The position numbers and the translations under genes were made by a program. From Planctomycetota bacterium (GTDB lineage Bacteria; Planctomycetota; Planctomycetia; Pirellulales; Pirellulaceae), in assembly GCA_029259935.1 (NCBI GenBank), contig JAJDEH010000126.1, forward strand, positions 1 through 19,259: DNA of 19,259 bases, written 5' to 3'. The notes beneath the pieces were generated by a model. It ran no database searches. It had not been told where the DNA came from and saw nothing but the letters and a program-made list of their open reading frames with translations. Within the stretch, counting starts at the first letter, position 1. Each line of letters starts with the position of its first letter. Shown in pieces: positions 13,589 to 19,259 of the stretch.

Positions 13589-14542
13589 CTATCGGCGAGC
13601 TTGGCGGAAACGAGGGCGGAAGCTGGAACGCGCATCGCGCATCGGAGAATGGCCCTGCGTGCCGGCGAAGTCCGGAGGGGCGCCTAGCATGTCTAGGGAG
13701 CGGGGGTCGGCCAAGTCGACTAACGGGTAGCCTTCGGGTTGGGGCATGGACCATAGCCTGGCTGGATCGCCCGCGAGTTGGTTGATGCGATAATTAGCGA
13801 CGTCGATTTGGAAGGCGGTTTGGTTTGGTTGGCCCGGAGCGAATTGGACTTCGATGTGACGCGGCAAGGTGACCCCGGCTTCCGGGTAGAATTGGTGTTT
13901 CGACGCGCGGGCGGAAGCCACAATGTTTCCCTGGACATCGTAGATGTGCTGTTCCTGTACCAAACCATGGACGCTGTCGACGACGGTGATTTTCTTGACC
14001 GGGCCGGCGGCGGACGCCAATTGGGAATGGATTTCCAGCCTGCCTGGGACGCGTTCGAACGGACCTTCGTGATGGCCCGACGGGTCGAGTTCCACGACGC
14101 CAAGGGCTTGAATAATCCAATCGGGCTCGACGGGCACCAGTTGCCGCGCGGAACTCCGCGCGAACTGATCGTGGCGGGCGTAGTAAACTCCGGGTGGTCG
14201 CATCTGCTCGGAGAAGATCCAGAATAATTCGTCATTGCTACCCAAATCGACGCCGATTCCCTGGATGCCAAACAGCGAGGTTTGAAGTCGTAGACGGCGC
14301 GGTCGCTCCATCGCCAGCTTTCCGCTGAGGCCAAATCCGCGGACCCGTAATGAGACGTTCGACTCGAGTTGTTGGATACGCGAACTGTTGGCATTGATCA
14401 CGCCAATGACTTGCTCTTTCGTGGCCGGCGGCGTGGGAAAGGCGACCGGAAATTGCTGCGCGGGCTGCCGCCAGAGGTGTTGGCATCCCGAAAGCAACAA
14501 CACGAAATGCGGCAGCAGCAAATAGAGGTAGCGGCGAGTCAA
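13589..14542 (-). CDS. Exported lipoprotein of unknown function, possibly LolA/DUF4292-like
   Basis: A 317-residue protein from a TTG at 14542 with AAGGA upstream. The N-terminus is a lipoprotein signal: RRYLYLLLPHFVLLLSGC, with the lipobox LSGC and Cys at residue 20. After a Pro/Gln linker, residues of about 45-260 alternate strands of LolA/LolB-like style (a helix IQQLESNVSLRVRG, then GKLAMERPRRLRLQTSLFG, then a late HIEVQFAPGQ strand). This resembles the DUF4292-type outer-membrane lipoproteins that shield a hydrophobic ligand, but I am not certain. The last 50 residues are Pro/Arg-rich. It is probably anchored in a membrane facing the periplasm. It is 68 bases downstream of the 14611-15099 gene, so it is probably in the same transcript. 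Confidence 0.7.
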   Translation of the reverse strand: MTRRYLYLLLPHFVLLLSGCQHLWRQPAQQFPVAFPTPPATKEQVIGVINANSSRIQQLESNVSLRVRGFGLSGKLAMERPRRLRLQTSLFGIQGIGVDLGSNDELFWIFSEQMRPPGVYYARHDQFARSSARQLVPVEPDWIIQALGVVELDPSGHHEGPFERVPGRLEIHSQLASAAGPVKKITVVDSVHGLVQEQHIYDVQGNIVASARASKHQFYPEAGVTLPRHIEVQFAPGQPNQTAFQIDVANYRINQLAGDPARLWSMPQPEGYPLVDLADPRSLDMLGAPPDFAGTQGHSPMRDARSSFRPRFRQARR

Positions 14543-14610
14543 ATCAGCATCCTTGCTGGTTGTGGATTCGGTGCTCCGAATTAATTTCGCGGTCAGCGGC
14601 GACCGTACGG

Positions 14611-15099
14611 TTACGTCGCGTTGGCGAACAAGAGTTGAGCGAGTTCTTCCTGAATTTCGTTAATGCGCGGTTCGGTGGGATCGATGACGAAGACTTTGTA
14701 TTCTTTTTCGTTACGCGAACAGAACAGTACGAGTACTTCACGACCCTGCTCGTCAGTTTCCGTCTCCTCAAGCCGCAACACGCGGCGACGAATCATCAGC
14801 AATGCGAGGATATACCGCATGTCATGCTTATCGGGTTGGTCCTCTAACTGGACGAAATATTCCAGCATCACGTCGTTAGGTGCCCACTGCATTTTCTTGG
14901 CCGACAACGATGGCATTTCCGACTTCCACCAGCCCAGCGAATCTTCCGGGGGCCCCTCCCAGGCTGGCTCGGAATAATCGAGTCGAATGACCTCGGCTTG
15001 GTCCTGCCGAAGCATGGAATAAAACGCCTGGCCCGGCTTCAGTTCTTCGCCTGTTTTGGCGCAGCGGCGCGTACATCGCTGAATTTCGAGGTCGAACAT
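14611..15099 (-). CDS. Conserved-looking hypothetical cytosolic protein
   Basis: About 162 residues from the ATG at 15099. A GTG pair at 15108 gives only three more residues, and GGTGG lies before the ATG. There is no signal or membrane segment. The start MFDLEIQRCTRRCAKTGEE carries two Cys in a C-x3-C arrangement. The middle has tryptophan-rich strands (EPAWEGPPEDSLGWW), then a helical part with ALLMIRRRVLRLEE, and the end has strand and helix elements (EVLVLFCSRNEKEYKVFVID). I do not recognise a named family or an active site. Its order (Cys-rich small protein, this protein, lipoprotein) and close spacing suggest one transcript. Function unknown. Confidence 0.65.
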   Translation of the reverse strand: MFDLEIQRCTRRCAKTGEELKPGQAFYSMLRQDQAEVIRLDYSEPAWEGPPEDSLGWWKSEMPSLSAKKMQWAPNDVMLEYFVQLEDQPDKHDMRYILALLMIRRRVLRLEETETDEQGREVLVLFCSRNEKEYKVFVIDPTEPRINEIQEELAQLLFANAT

Positions 15100-15162
15100 G
15101 GACACCACCGGCGAGCAATCGAGTGAAAAGCCGTGGAATACTATGCAAAACCGGCGGTTGAC

Positions 15163-15438
15163 TCAATAGACGGTAAAGAAGCGGCTGTCGGAGCCCCCGT
15201 TGCCGATGCGGAAAGTGATGCGGCGACGGCACTTAGGGCAATTCCCAGCGTACTCGGTCGCCGTGCGGTTCACGTACACCCGCGAATAGACTCCACAGCA
15301 CGCGAAGTGAACCCCCAAATATCGGTTGTCGGGATTCGCGGCATCTTCGGCCCGCGAGGGAGGAACGCTGCTGCTGTCGAAGTTTTCGCCGATCATCGAT
15401 AGGTCCACTCGATCTGAATAAATCTCCACGCAGTTCAC
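15163..15438 (-). CDS. Small Cys-rich hypothetical protein
   Basis: Up to 91 residues, depending on the start. GTG at 15438, GTG at 15429 and ATG at 15396 are all in frame; the last has GAGTGG in front. The C-terminal half is the best part: YLGVHFACCGVYSRVYVNR followed by GNCPKCRRRITFRIG. The pair ACC plus CPKC can supply four Cys for a zinc site, and the basic residues after it would suit nucleic-acid or anionic binding. There is no membrane segment. It lies 63 bases upstream of the 14611-15099 gene on the same strand, so it is probably the first gene of that transcript. No known family is recognised. Confidence 0.6.
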   Translation of the reverse strand: MNCVEIYSDRVDLSMIGENFDSSSVPPSRAEDAANPDNRYLGVHFACCGVYSRVYVNRTATEYAGNCPKCRRRITFRIGNGGSDSRFFTVY

Positions 15439-15734
15439 CGGCGATGGCCGAATTGGTCAAGAGCGGTTTTGGCGGCCGGTTATGGCCCATTACGGCACTA
15501 TCACCGCTGAACGGTGGGACGTCGCTGGTAGCTTGTCGGGTAATGCCAACGAGTTATGAAGGATAGGTTAGAAATGTCCGGCAGGACGGAGTGTTTCGGC
15601 GCTGTGCGTCTTCATCGTCTTGCGGACAACAACCAAAAGAACGAAAAACTGGACTTCCGACCGCATCCCCTTTTGGTGTCAGGTTGACCGAACCTTGCGG
15701 CTCGGTTACAGTCATTAACCATCAATACACTGTT
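15439..15734. other. Intergenic region between divergent transcripts
   Basis: About 300 bases between the minus-strand Cys-rich gene and the leu leader. It must hold promoters for both directions, but I cannot assign firm -35/-10 pairs; TTGCGG near 15696 followed by AT-rich sequence is one weak possibility for the leader. A plus-strand frame from 15591 reads into the leader peptide but has no coding character before it. Confidence 0.4.
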
Positions 15735-15746
15735 GAGGAAACCGCC

Positions 15747-15806
15747 GTGGATTCACCTTCCCTATTGGCATTGCTACTACTTTCCCGTCACCGGGCCAAA
15801 GGGTGA
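15747..15806 (+). CDS. leuL: leu leader peptide
   Basis: A 19-residue peptide from a GTG seven bases after GAGGA. It reads VDSPSLLALLLLSRHRAKG (first residue read as Met). Six of 19 codons are Leu, and they are CTA, TTG, TTG, CTA, CTA and CTT. CTA in particular looks rare compared with the CTG-rich neighbouring genes, which would make the stretch sensitive to charged leucyl-tRNA. The TGA stop lies 31 bases before the stem of a terminator. The peptide itself probably has no function; its translation senses leucine. Too short for most gene finders. The symbol is by analogy with leuL of enterobacteria, with no claim of homology. Confidence 0.75.
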   Translation: MDSPSLLALLLLSRHRAKG

Positions 15807-15837
15807 TTTGTCGCGACGTGTTCGACTGCTGATCCAT

Positions 15838-15866
15838 CCCGAGGCTTAGAAACCTCGGGTTTTTTT
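15838..15866 (+). terminator. Intrinsic terminator of the leu attenuator
   Basis: CCCGAGG (15838-15844) pairs perfectly with CCTCGGG (15853-15859) around an 8-base loop, followed directly by seven T (15860-15866). This is a strong factor-independent terminator placed before, not after, leuA. Confidence 0.85.
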
Positions 15867-16112
15867 GTGTTTTCTCATACTGTCATCAAATTCCATGAAT
15901 GCTGCTAAATTAGATCGCTGGTCGGAACTTCGCGGTGCGTCCAGCAGGGGAATCGGCGTTCAAGATCGGTGGATTTCTCGCGCTGGGGCGCGATTGTTAT
16001 TGCCTGGCCGGCCACGAGCCGGCAACTAAGCGAACGTGATCGGGCGTCGATTGACGGGGCGCCCAACCAAGCAAAGGCACTCTCCACCGAATTTCCACAA
16101 GGAATCCATTCC
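15867..16112 (+). other. leuA leader beyond the attenuator
   Basis: About 245 bases between the terminator and the leuA start. It contains a 44-codon frame (15895-16029) with no ribosome binding site, and a GCCGG/CCGGC hairpin near 16004-16020. AAGGA at about 16099-16103 is the leuA ribosome binding site. I see no second regulatory element I can name. Confidence 0.4.
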
Positions 16113-17645
16113 ATGACGGACAAGCGATATATAAAGATATTTGATACGACCCTGCGTGACGGCGAACAGTCGCCGGGAGCGAGCATGAATCTGGCCGAGA
16201 AGATGGAGGTGGCCCAGGCGCTGATCGACCTGGGAGTCGACATTATCGAAGCCGGCTTTCCCATCGCCTCGCCGGGCGATTTTGAAGCGGTCCGCGAAAT
16301 CTCCGCCACCTTTCGCGGATCCACGATTTGCGGATTGGCCCGCTGCAACGACGCCGATATCGATCGGGCTTGGGAAGCGCTGAAACTGAGCGAACAGCCG
16401 CGTATTCATGTGTTTCTGGCGACCAGCGCGATTCATAGGGAATTCAAACTGAAGATGTCTCCCGACGAAATCGTCCAGCGCAGTGTGAAGGGCGTCCAGC
16501 GCGCCGTGGGCTATTGCGACGATGTTGAATTTTCGCCGGAAGACGCCGCCCGCACCGAACTCGATTTCCTGTGTCGCGTAGTAGAAGCGGCGATCGAGGC
16601 GGGGGCGACCACGGTCAACATTCCTGACACGGTTGGTTACGCAACTCCGCAGCAGATGGGCAAGGTGATCGCCACGCTGGTTGATCGGGTGCCCAATATC
16701 GACAAAGCGGTGATCAGCGTCCACTGCCATAACGATTTGGGACTGGCGGTGGCCAACAGTCTGGCGGCCGTCGAAAATGGAGCTGGCCAAATCGAATGTA
16801 CCGTGAATGGAATCGGCGAACGGGCGGGCAATTGTTCATTGGAAGAAGCAGTCATGGCCATGCGCACCCGTAGTGACTATTACGGTTGTGAAACGCGCGT
16901 GAATACTCAGCGGCTGGTTCCCGCCAGTCGCCTGGTGTCTTCGATTACGGGAATCCAGGTGCAGCGTAACAAGGCCATTGTCGGCCGCAACGCGTTCGCC
17001 CATGAAGCGGGAATCCACCAAGACGGAATGCTCAAGGAACGCACCACCTACGAAATCATGCGACCCGAAGATGTGGGCTTTACGAAAACGGATTTGGTAC
17101 TCGGAAAACACAGTGGCCGGGCGGCACTGGCCGATCGCGCCAAGACGCTGGGATATCACCTCACCGCGGAACAACTGCTGACAGTCTTCGACGAGTTCAA
17201 GATCCTTGCCGACAAAAAGAAAGAGGTCTACGACGGAGATATCGCCGCACTGATTGATCAGCAGATCCGTAGTATTCCTCATGAAGTATGGTCGCTGGTC
17301 GCATTTCAAGCGACTTCCAGTAGTGAAGGGGCACCGAACGTGCGAATGACCCTGCGACACGGCGATCAGGAATTCACCGAAGATCATTCCGAGGGCGACG
17401 GGCCGATCGACTGTGCCTTTTGGGCGGTCGAGAAAATCACGGGCGTGAAATTACACTGCAAGGATTATCAAGTTCGCAGCGCAACTTTGGGCCGGGATGC
17501 GCAGGGCGAGGCTACACTGGAAGTAGAACATGGCGGCCAGACGTTTCGTGGCCGGGGCGTCTCGACCGACACGGTTGAGGCGACCATCCGAGCCATCCTC
17601 GACGCGGTGAACCGAGTGGCGATGACTAAAATGAAGGCTGGATAG
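16113..17645 (+). CDS. leuA: 2-isopropylmalate synthase
   Basis: A 510-residue enzyme that condenses acetyl-CoA with 2-oxoisovalerate, the first committed step of leucine synthesis. ATG 16113 has AAGGA nine bases upstream and matches the usual family start; the open frame upstream lacks similarity. The TIM-barrel catalytic domain carries [10 protein letters not shown] (13-22, with metal ligand D16), HCHNDLGLA (H204 and H206 as metal ligands, D208) and [23 protein letters not shown] and [10 protein letters not shown] lie in the linker subdomains. The C-terminal 130 residues (from about [10 protein letters not shown]) match the LeuA regulatory dimer domain that binds leucine for feedback inhibition. 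Length fits the short-chain bacterial type (510-525). It is controlled at two levels: attenuation by the leader upstream and, by family knowledge, leucine feedback. No other leu genes follow. Confidence 0.95.
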
Positions 17646-17708
17646 TCTTGACGGATGGCAGCGAGTGAACGTGAAGAAGTCTTCCACGGAAAATCTGTTA
17701 CGAACTGT

Positions 17709-17724
17709 CCTGGAAGAGGCCAGG
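17709..17724 (+). promoter_or_regulatory. Small hairpin over the ribosome binding site of the FHA gene
   Basis: CCTGG (17709-17713) and CCAGG (17720-17724) pair around the loop AAGAGG, just before the ATG at 17732. The likely Shine-Dalgarno AGG (17722-17724, seven bases before the ATG) lies in the stem, so the hairpin could dampen translation. There is no terminator between leuA and this gene, so read-through from leuA is possible. Confidence 0.3.
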
Positions 17725-17731
17725 TAGTTGT

Positions 17732-19259
17732 ATGGCTACTATTAATGTCATGCTGGACGACGGCGAGTCGAGAAGCGTGCCCCTGCTTCGTCGCGAGACG
17801 ATGATCGGCCGCCAATCGACTTGCGACGTCGTGCTGCCCGATTCCACGGTATCGCGAATTCATGCGCGCATCGTGTGCGATCGCGATGGTTTTTACGTCG
17901 AGGACTTGGACAGCTCGCACGGCACCAAGCTGAACGGCCAGCGGCTCACCAACCGCGAGCTGTTAGGCAACCTTGATAGAATTCAAATATCGGGCGCGCT
18001 GCTGACGTTCTACGAGTCGGATTCGCCCCAGGATTTGGATGCGGCCAAAGGCCTAACGGCCGACAATTCATCGGCGATTCTCAGCCGGCAAGACCCTTCG
18101 GAAGTGATCACCCGGAGCAACGTCAACGCACAGAAAAAACTGCGGGCGTTGCTCGAAATTAACGAGATCCTGGGGGCGTCCCTGGACACCGACCAGATCT
18201 TTCCGGCATTGCTCGATCGAGTCTTTCAGATCTTTCCGCAGGCCCGCCGAGGTTGCGTGCTGCTGGCCGACTCACTAGAAGGCGACCTAATCCCGCAGGC
18301 GGTTAAGAATTTGGAGGACTCGGGCAATTCGCGGCGCGCGGTCAGCCGTACGATTGCCGAATGCGTGATCAATAATGGCGAAGCGATCTTGTGTGCCGAC
18401 ACCAACCTTGATTCGCGGTTCATGTCTAGCGATTCGGTGGCCACGTTGCAGATCCGTTCGGTGATGTGCGCGCCGTTGTTGGCCGCCGAATCGAAGCCGC
18501 TGGGAATGATCCAAATCGAAACCGATGAAACGCGGTCGCCCTTCTTGGAGGATGACCTGGAAGTGCTGATCAACGTCGCCAAGCTGGCCGGCCACATCGT
18601 TTCGCACGCAAGATTGCACCAATCGCAGTTGCAATACGATCGGCGTGAACGCGACGTCTCGTTTGCCAAGCAAGTGCAACTTCATTTCTTACCGCAAGCG
18701 CCGCCCGAGATTCCCGGTTACAAGGTACGTGATTTTTATCGTGCCGCCGAGGGCGTGGGGGGCGACTATTTTGGTTACATCGATTTGTCCGACGGCCGCC
18801 ATGCCATTGCCATGGGGGATGTTTCGGGAAAAGGCGTCTCGGCCGCCTTGCTGATGGCCCGCCTGTGCAGCGACGTTCGCTACTGTTTGGCGACTAGGCC
18901 GACACCGGCCGAGGCGGTCGCCCAACTTGACCGGGAAATGGTGAACGCCGTTTTGTTGGGCGGCTTCATCACGTTTGTGCTTTGCGTTTTAGATTGTCGG
19001 ACGCATGAATTGAGCGTCGTCAATGCCGGCCATATGCCGCCGCTGTGTCGCCGCGCGAAATCGGGCCGGGTCGAAGCGATCGGTGGCGACGTGGCGAATC
19101 TGCCTTTGGGCGTCGGATCGGATTCGGCCTTTCGGCAGGCCAATATCCAACTAGAACCGGGCGACGCTTTCTTTCTGTACACCGACGGCGTCAGCGAGGC
19201 GACCAACTCCAAACTGGATTTGTTCGGTACCGAGCGGATTTCAAAGTTGATGGCCGAAC
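17732..19259 (+). CDS. FHA-GAF-PP2C (RsbU/SpoIIE-like) protein phosphatase, 3' partial
   Basis: At least 509 residues; the gene runs off the window. Residues 1-95 are an FHA domain with all key motifs: MIGRQSTCDVVLPDS (24-38), VSRIHARI (40-47) and DSSHGTKLNG (60-69); it binds phosphothreonine peptides. Residues of about 130-300 form a GAF sensor domain (starting LLEINEILGASLDTDQIF, ending PLGMIQIETDE). From about 310 follows a PP2C/SpoIIE-type phosphatase: FLPQAPPEIPGY, GVGGDYFGY (D345), GDVSGKGVSAALLMA (D363), NAGHMPP and FFLYTDGVSEATN (D485). The metal-binding Asp residues are present, so it should be active. Such proteins dephosphorylate anti-sigma factor antagonists in partner-switching pathways. 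No partner is within the window. It is cytosolic. The ATG at 17732 has AGG seven bases upstream. Confidence 0.9.
   Translation, partial: MATINVMLDDGESRSVPLLRRETMIGRQSTCDVVLPDSTVSRIHARIVCDRDGFYVEDLDSSHGTKLNGQRLTNRELLGNLDRIQISGALLTFYESDSPQDLDAAKGLTADNSSAILSRQDPSEVITRSNVNAQKKLRALLEINEILGASLDTDQIFPALLDRVFQIFPQARRGCVLLADSLEGDLIPQAVKNLEDSGNSRRAVSRTIAECVINNGEAILCADTNLDSRFMSSDSVATLQIRSVMCAPLLAAESKPLGMIQIETDETRSPFLEDDLEVLINVAKLAGHIVSHARLHQSQLQYDRRERDVSFAKQVQLHFLPQAPPEIPGYKVRDFYRAAEGVGGDYFGYIDLSDGRHAIAMGDVSGKGVSAALLMARLCSDVRYCLATRPTPAEAVAQLDREMVNAVLLGGFITFVLCVLDCRTHELSVVNAGHMPPLCRRAKSGRVEAIGGDVANLPLGVGSDSAFRQANIQLEPGDAFFLYTDGVSEATNSKLDLFGTERISKLMAE

Follow-up and report, generated by a model that had tools for sequence, protein, structure and literature searches.

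The region upstream of leuA in a 19,259-nucleotide stretch of a Pirellulaceae genome (the whole stretch being referred to here as the window) raises the question of whether a short ORF rich in leucine codons, followed by a terminator, forms a transcription attenuator in Planctomycetota. The logic would be that of the enterobacterial leu operon attenuator (leuL), in which a leader with Leu codons, including the rare CUA, precedes an intrinsic terminator and leuA is the first gene. The first-pass annotation of the window knew of no such case in this lineage, and none was found in searches of open-access papers that named the group or one of its genera; little on the control of amino-acid synthesis in Planctomycetota was found in the literature searched. 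The features concerned are as follows.

14611 to 15108, strand opposite to leuA: upstream neighbour ORF
15684 to 15712, forward strand: promoter-like site TTGACC-17-TACAGT, 9/12 matches to the consensus TTGACA/TATAAT
15735 to 15739, forward strand: Shine-Dalgarno-like GAGGA, 7 nt 5' of the GTG, read from the sequence
15747 to 15806, forward strand: leader peptide ORF VDSPSLLALLLLSRHRAKG, 19 codons, GTG at 15747 and stop TGA at 15804 to 15806
within 15762 to 15782, forward strand: six leader Leu codons, CTA TTG TTG CTA CTA CTT, three of them CTA
15793 to 15803, forward strand: candidate antiterminator 5' arm GGGCCAAAGGG in the last leader codons, with the GGCC-N3-GGG register seen in relatives
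15838 to 15847, forward strand: terminator 5' arm, which is also the candidate antiterminator 3' arm, CCCGAGGCTT
15838 to 15866, forward strand: intrinsic terminator with a perfect 7-bp stem (15838 to 15859), an 8-nt loop and T7 (15860 to 15866)
16113 to 17645, forward strand: leuA, 2-isopropylmalate synthase, 510 aa, ATG at 16113, over the NCBIfam cut-off

The first-pass annotation had described a GTG-started 19-codon ORF with its own Shine-Dalgarno sequence and six Leu codons, ending 31 nt before a perfect 7-bp stem with seven T, with leuA as the next gene, in a planctomycete-like genome. All of this was borne out, the leuA product scoring 751.7 bits against NF002086 (cut-off 532) and 708.3 bits against TIGR00973 (598.7), and the nearest LeuA among relatives (81% identity) coming from a Planctomycetota genome. 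The description of CTA as rare in neighbouring genes was fair, as this codon accounts for 3/6 of the Leu codons in the leader, compared with 0/34 in leuA and 19/380 in 11 genes of the window. The terminator lies 246 nt before leuA, and its T run 253 nt.

We consider that positions 15684 to 15866 constitute a ribosome-mediated transcription attenuator of leuA responding to leucyl-tRNA supply, with a probability of roughly 0.88. Translation of the leader, stalling of the ribosome, a change in termination and a response to leucine are all predicted from sequence. Transcription would start upstream of the leader, as conserved promoter-like sites suggest. When Leu-tRNA is plentiful, the ribosome would proceed to the leader stop and mask the antiterminator 5' arm around it, allowing the terminator to form and preventing transcription of leuA. 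When Leu-tRNA is scarce, the ribosome would pause in the CTA/TTG/CTT run and the antiterminator arm would stay free to pair with the terminator 5' arm, so that RNA polymerase would read through to leuA.

Taken alone, the pieces in the window would not exceed chance, since 14000 to 18500 holds 3 terminator-like sites where 5.2 are expected and 1 promoter-like site where 2.3 are expected. By the criteria of this analysis, the combination of a Leu-rich short ORF and a terminator occurs once on the forward strand of the whole window and nowhere on the reverse strand. That such sites are not above expectation here speaks for a terminator of another transcript lying beside a random Leu-rich ORF, but the upstream ORF (14611 to 15108) is on the other strand and conservation refutes coincidence for the family; this explanation is scarcely credible for the window. 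The element exceeds chance because it is conserved, being present at 136/196 leuA loci compared with 2/588 shuffles.

This conservation was established in two sets of loci. The first came from a contig scan with LeuA that confirmed 592 stretches, of which the best 80, by title mostly Planctomycetota, were retained. The criterion was a short ORF in which 7 codons included 4 Leu or more, located no more than 800 nt upstream and ending 35–85 nt before a terminator T run. Including the window, the composite was found in 53/81 loci, compared with 0/810 dinucleotide shuffles and 0–2 of 81 for other amino acids. Enlargement drew on 196 genomes of the order to which the nearest relative (L001) belongs, of which 194 had a LeuA match; 30 automatic and 114 chosen loci were added, and the resulting 225 loci were reduced to 196 that were non-redundant at 97% leuA identity. 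With the leader-to-T-run distance set at 30–90 nt, other amino acids gave 0–5 of these 196 loci. Requiring 3, 4, 5 or 6 Leu per 7 codons gave 139, 136, 122 and 70 of 196 loci, while a single shuffle at each threshold gave 2, 0, 0 and 0. The expectation of the first-pass annotation that related leuA upstream regions would retain the Leu run and terminator was therefore realised in both sets, and the window element belongs to a conserved set of leuA attenuators in Planctomycetota that are very probably ribosome-mediated.

The element is, however, absent by these criteria from 60/196 loci, 29 of which stand as an unbroken block at the foot of the LeuA tree listing. The criterion is conservative, as L112, scored as lacking the element, shows by eye a terminator and a Leu leader that contains UUA. 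Summed over loci, CTA represents 242/1005 Leu codons in leaders and 84/4840 in leuA. Attenuator-like composites were found at 0/28 ilvB and 0/27 trpE loci in a sample from the same order (30 were returned for each gene, and only loci exceeding the family cut-off are counted), indicating that the scanner does not fire everywhere; the ilvB and trpE queries were longest ORFs whose start is possibly too far upstream, in which case a terminator very near the gene could be missed.

The placement of promoter-like sites agrees with the proposed order of events. Sites with at least 9/12 matches to TTGACA/TATAAT were found in the 108 nt preceding the leader start at 92/134 loci, where 7.2 are expected from mononucleotide shuffles, and past the terminator at only 3/86 loci, where 1.6 are expected. 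The hexamers are mostly TTGACC, TTGACG or TTGACT, with TAGAGT, TAGACT, TAAAGT or TACAGT. A sole leuA promoter beyond the terminator, which the first-pass annotation had named as evidence against its proposal, is thus not indicated by these promoter-like sites, and their placement and the conservation together support its interpretation of the region as a probable leuA attenuator.

The terminator stem is well supported among 43 aligned leaders, in which 86.2% of cells are paired and 47 cells are changed on both sides, compared with 14.2 when shuffled (0/500), the covariation score dropping at every slide. The candidate antiterminator arms of relatives consist of the last codons and stop of the leader, typically GGCC-nTAG-GGG or GGCC-TTAG-GGT, opposite a terminator 5' arm CCC(C)-GA-GGCC. 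The first-pass annotation had looked to covariation in this antiterminator, and here the outcome was divided. In MAFFT columns, 23 cells are changed on both sides compared with 12.5 (0/500), but 68.6% are paired compared with 67.2, the covariation score is equalled by 122/500 shuffles and a slide of +1 scores higher, an ambiguity that is probably due to MAFFT mixing two registers. Because this column-wise signal is equivocal, an alignment-free RNAduplex swap test was preferred, and it favours each arm's own partner. The own mean is −17.8 kcal/mol over 53 loci (permuted partners −15.0, 0/5000; shuffled arms −12.3) and −19.8 kcal/mol over 136 loci (permuted −16.8, 0/300; shuffled −12.9), in statistics that ignore kinship of the sequences. 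Single-sequence folding was rejected as evidence, the leader region of the window folding no better than shuffles (z −0.18).

The best antiterminator duplex overlaps the stop codon in 124/136 loci. Assuming a ribosome footprint reaching 12 nt ahead of the A-site codon, an A site at 817/1012 leader Leu codons leaves the antiterminator arm free, and a ribosome at the stop overlaps the arm in 136/136 loci, partly owing to how the arm was searched. In a test against each locus's own shuffles, 91/136 duplexes beat 38 of 40; the other 45/136 do not, which counts against the pairing, as do weak duplexes in some cultured relatives (L035 −9.9, L038 −10.5 and L055 −4.7 kcal/mol). Rhodopirellula maiorica SM1 (L030) has a stronger one, at −17.2 kcal/mol.

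The window itself has a weak duplex, GGGCC-AAA-GGG / CCC-GA-GGCUU, at −11.2 kcal/mol, which falls short of the 53-locus mean and is matched by 821/2000 shuffled arms. This would fit an attenuator that is real in relatives and has decayed in the window, the antiterminator being lost and leuA simply partly terminated. Such decay is improbable, since the GGCC-N3-GGG register is retained although the stop comes two codons later than in relatives like L001, the CTA codons and the perfect T7 terminator are also retained, and covariance model R1, built from 43 leaders, matches the whole element at 15753 to 15870 (E 3.5e-12, 48.8 bits, the window being part of its training set).

Another explanation is that the leader controls translation, as a uORF or through reinitiation, or encodes a working small peptide, with the terminator as a separate feature. 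A 2016 paper reports that in several phyla, including Planctomycetes, the frequency of leader genes peaks a short distance upstream of genes (PMC4833913), which is compatible with such a role. Against it, the T run stands at a steady distance from the leader stop (median 62 nt, interquartile 59–67), the T run of the window seems too far from leuA, at 253 nt, for reinitiation, and the peptide varies among relatives outside the Leu run while the RNA arm pairs. A translational or peptide role is accordingly very unlikely, though less so than coincidence, and attenuation of leuA transcription is retained as the preferred reading.

Compared with the enterobacterial Leu_leader, the planctomycete antiterminator 5' arm includes or abuts the leader stop codon, and the window element has no Rfam match at gathering. 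Neither Leu_leader nor any other Rfam family reached its gathering score in the window, searches at E up to 10 in 15600 to 16000 giving only unrelated weak matches, and in relatives, where 20 of the 80 first loci were scanned, only tRNAs were matched. T-box riboswitches sense uncharged tRNA and control a terminator; no T-box covariance-model match was found in the window or in relatives scanned with Rfam, and sensing in the window would instead proceed through the codons of the leader ORF. A Leu-run leader before leuA is shared with Actinobacteria, where the LEU element and the C. glutamicum leuA leader are described (PMC1262725, PMC4046766). The LEU element is presented as a pseudoknot formed by pairing between the run of Leu codons and the Shine-Dalgarno box of leuA (PMC1262725). 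Compared by description, the window differs from the LEU element in having an intrinsic terminator after its leader, 246 nt before leuA. Neither leuA nor planctomycetes are mentioned in the main text of a survey of premature terminators from 2010, whose authors state that they knew of earlier demonstrations of leader-peptide systems only in Proteobacteria and Actinobacteria (PMC2965389). A motif named 'Rhodopirellula-1' is listed as likely cis-regulatory in Proteobacteria and Planctomycetes in another study (PMC2864571), and possibly overlaps the leuA element.

R1 matches at E up to 0.01 occur in 108/148 genomes of the class, the weaker ones often covering the terminator part only. Among 20 chosen main matches outside the 196 genomes, some of which are near duplicates, 19 precede a LeuA of 58–69% identity and 17 have a Leu-rich ORF and terminator (not L283, L290 or L294). 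The match at L290 (G302:C176) precedes an ORF that by eye is aminotransferase-like and has no Leu-rich leader by the criteria. A further 20 matches, mostly second in their genome, comprise 9 before a LeuA paralogue of ~29% identity, 7 before DAHP synthase, 2 before LeuA and 2 before neither. Of the nine paralogues, L257 and L258 exceed the cut-off for citramalate synthase (TIGR00977); of the seven DAHP synthase loci, L264 and L269 exceed that of TIGR01361.

The remaining cimA and DAHP synthase loci were located by tblastn with those proteins, 30 loci per gene being taken as best matches and not as a random sample. The loci examined were L255–L258, L263, L268, L270, L272, L273 and L295–L324 for cimA, and L259, L260, L262, L264, L267, L269, L271 and L325–L354 for DAHP synthase. 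Ile-rich leaders precede cimA at 13/38 loci (8/30 best order matches and 5/8 selected by the model), with 0/190 in shuffles and 0–4 for other amino acids. Leaders rich in Phe/Tyr/Trp precede DAHP synthase at 24/36 loci (19/30 and 5/6), with 0/180 in shuffles, 11 for Phe alone, 12/36 for Gly and 0–1 for the rest; we attribute the Gly count to these leaders being Gly-rich at their end. These leaders contain Phe, Tyr and Trp codons and many have a GRGAGGG-like end. Any terminator within 700 nt was found at 29/38 cimA and 27/36 DAHP synthase loci. The agreement between leader amino acid and pathway product, Ile at cimA and aromatic at DAHP synthase, supports the attenuator interpretation. Leaders with Phe or Phe-Tyr-Phe before aroF (DAHP synthase) in Corynebacterium and Acholeplasma appear in earlier reports (PMC4046766; uORFC-13-1, PMC8632094), from which the planctomycete leaders differ in often holding Phe, Tyr and Trp together.

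Taken alone, the window element is less novel, being a switch of known type from a lineage for which no described case was found. Attenuation by ribosomes depends on transcription and translation being closely coupled, and the planctomycete cell plan has been debated; conservation of such attenuators in the class would therefore be sequence evidence for coupling there. The newest parts of the analysis are a link between some attenuators and a tRNA gene, and leaderless leader mRNAs, both offered as hypotheses.

A tRNA-Leu gene, always with anticodon UAA, lies within 2 kb downstream on the leuA strand at 38/196 loci, and a terminator between leuA and this gene was found in 0/38. L049, whose tRNA overlaps the called end of leuA, was added to the tRNA group by hand. 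UUA is read only by tRNA-Leu(UAA), and its presence in leaders tends to accompany this arrangement. Where the tRNA gene is near (<400 nt; 22 loci, 21 with a leader), UUA occurs in 21/21 leaders. Where it is far (520–1229 nt; 17 loci, mostly with an opposite-strand ORF between), UUA occurs in 14/16 leaders, and where no tRNA was found in at least 1200 nt of visible sequence, in 13/91. Loci with downstream sequence too short to tell had UUA in 4/8 leaders. The near loci include L010, L016, L017, L026, L042, L044, L047, L062, L073, L077, L079, L115, L128, L139, L145, L166, L190, L194 and L217. At far loci such as L056, L070, L083, L085–L087, L164 and L196, the intervening opposite-strand ORF is membrane-like, has ~160 aa and is presumably DUF420. 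The window has no tRNA gene and its leader no UUA.

UUA represents 44/156 (near), 16/124 (far) and 13/668 (none) of leader Leu codons, compared with 36/735, 16/569 and 93/3245 of leuA Leu codons at the same loci, so that leuA codon use does not account for UUA in the leaders. Fisher's test for any tRNA gave 1.4e-16 (34/36 compared with 18/100, before L049 was reassigned), ignoring kinship. The LeuA tree shows 11 changes of tRNA state. In a sign test on 8 independent pairs, a mean of 4.3 pairs went the same way, 0 the opposite way and 3.7 showed no difference (p 0.0625–0.125, not significant). A correlated-evolution likelihood test in our own code gave LR 37.8 and p 1.3e-7 on 128 tips when near, far and no-tRNA loci were included, and LR 33.8 and p 8.1e-7 on 112 tips when far loci were omitted; it used a single LeuA quick tree, and some of its rates took extreme values. 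An operon effect alone was considered for the association and is weakened by the far loci, which still have UUA in 14/16 leaders. The search found no UAA tRNA-Leu besides the leuA-linked gene in G108 and G092 (near) and G167 (far); in G007, which has no linkage, the UAA tRNA-Leu is located elsewhere.

It may be, then, that the attenuator monitors its own tRNA as well. Scarcity of tRNA-Leu(UAA) would stall the leader at UUA and switch on the tRNA's own gene, and this self-monitoring would spare leucine-replete cells the shut-off of an essential tRNA. If causal, the match between gene and codon would connect a tRNA gene with a sensor that works through that tRNA's own codon. We would place at somewhat less than even odds the combined picture in which, in part of Pirellulales, the leuA attenuator also governs the downstream tRNA-Leu(UAA) gene and a UUA leader senses that tRNA, charged or not, while Ile attenuators at cimA and aromatic ones at DAHP synthase operate in parallel in the class, and some mostly related loci are leaderless.

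This last component derives from the spacing between promoter and leader. Shine-Dalgarno-like motifs precede 25/134 leaders, and in 18/92 loci with a promoter call the -10 box ends 6–9 nt 5' of the leader ATG, for example in L023, L025, L030, L033, L035, L036, L038 and L048, and further in L052, L053, L067, L123, L127, L167 and L201. At this spacing the mRNA would start at or beside the start codon, which predicts leaderless leader-peptide mRNAs. By reading of the tree listing, 15/18 of these candidates fall in the run that holds named Rhodopirellula strains.
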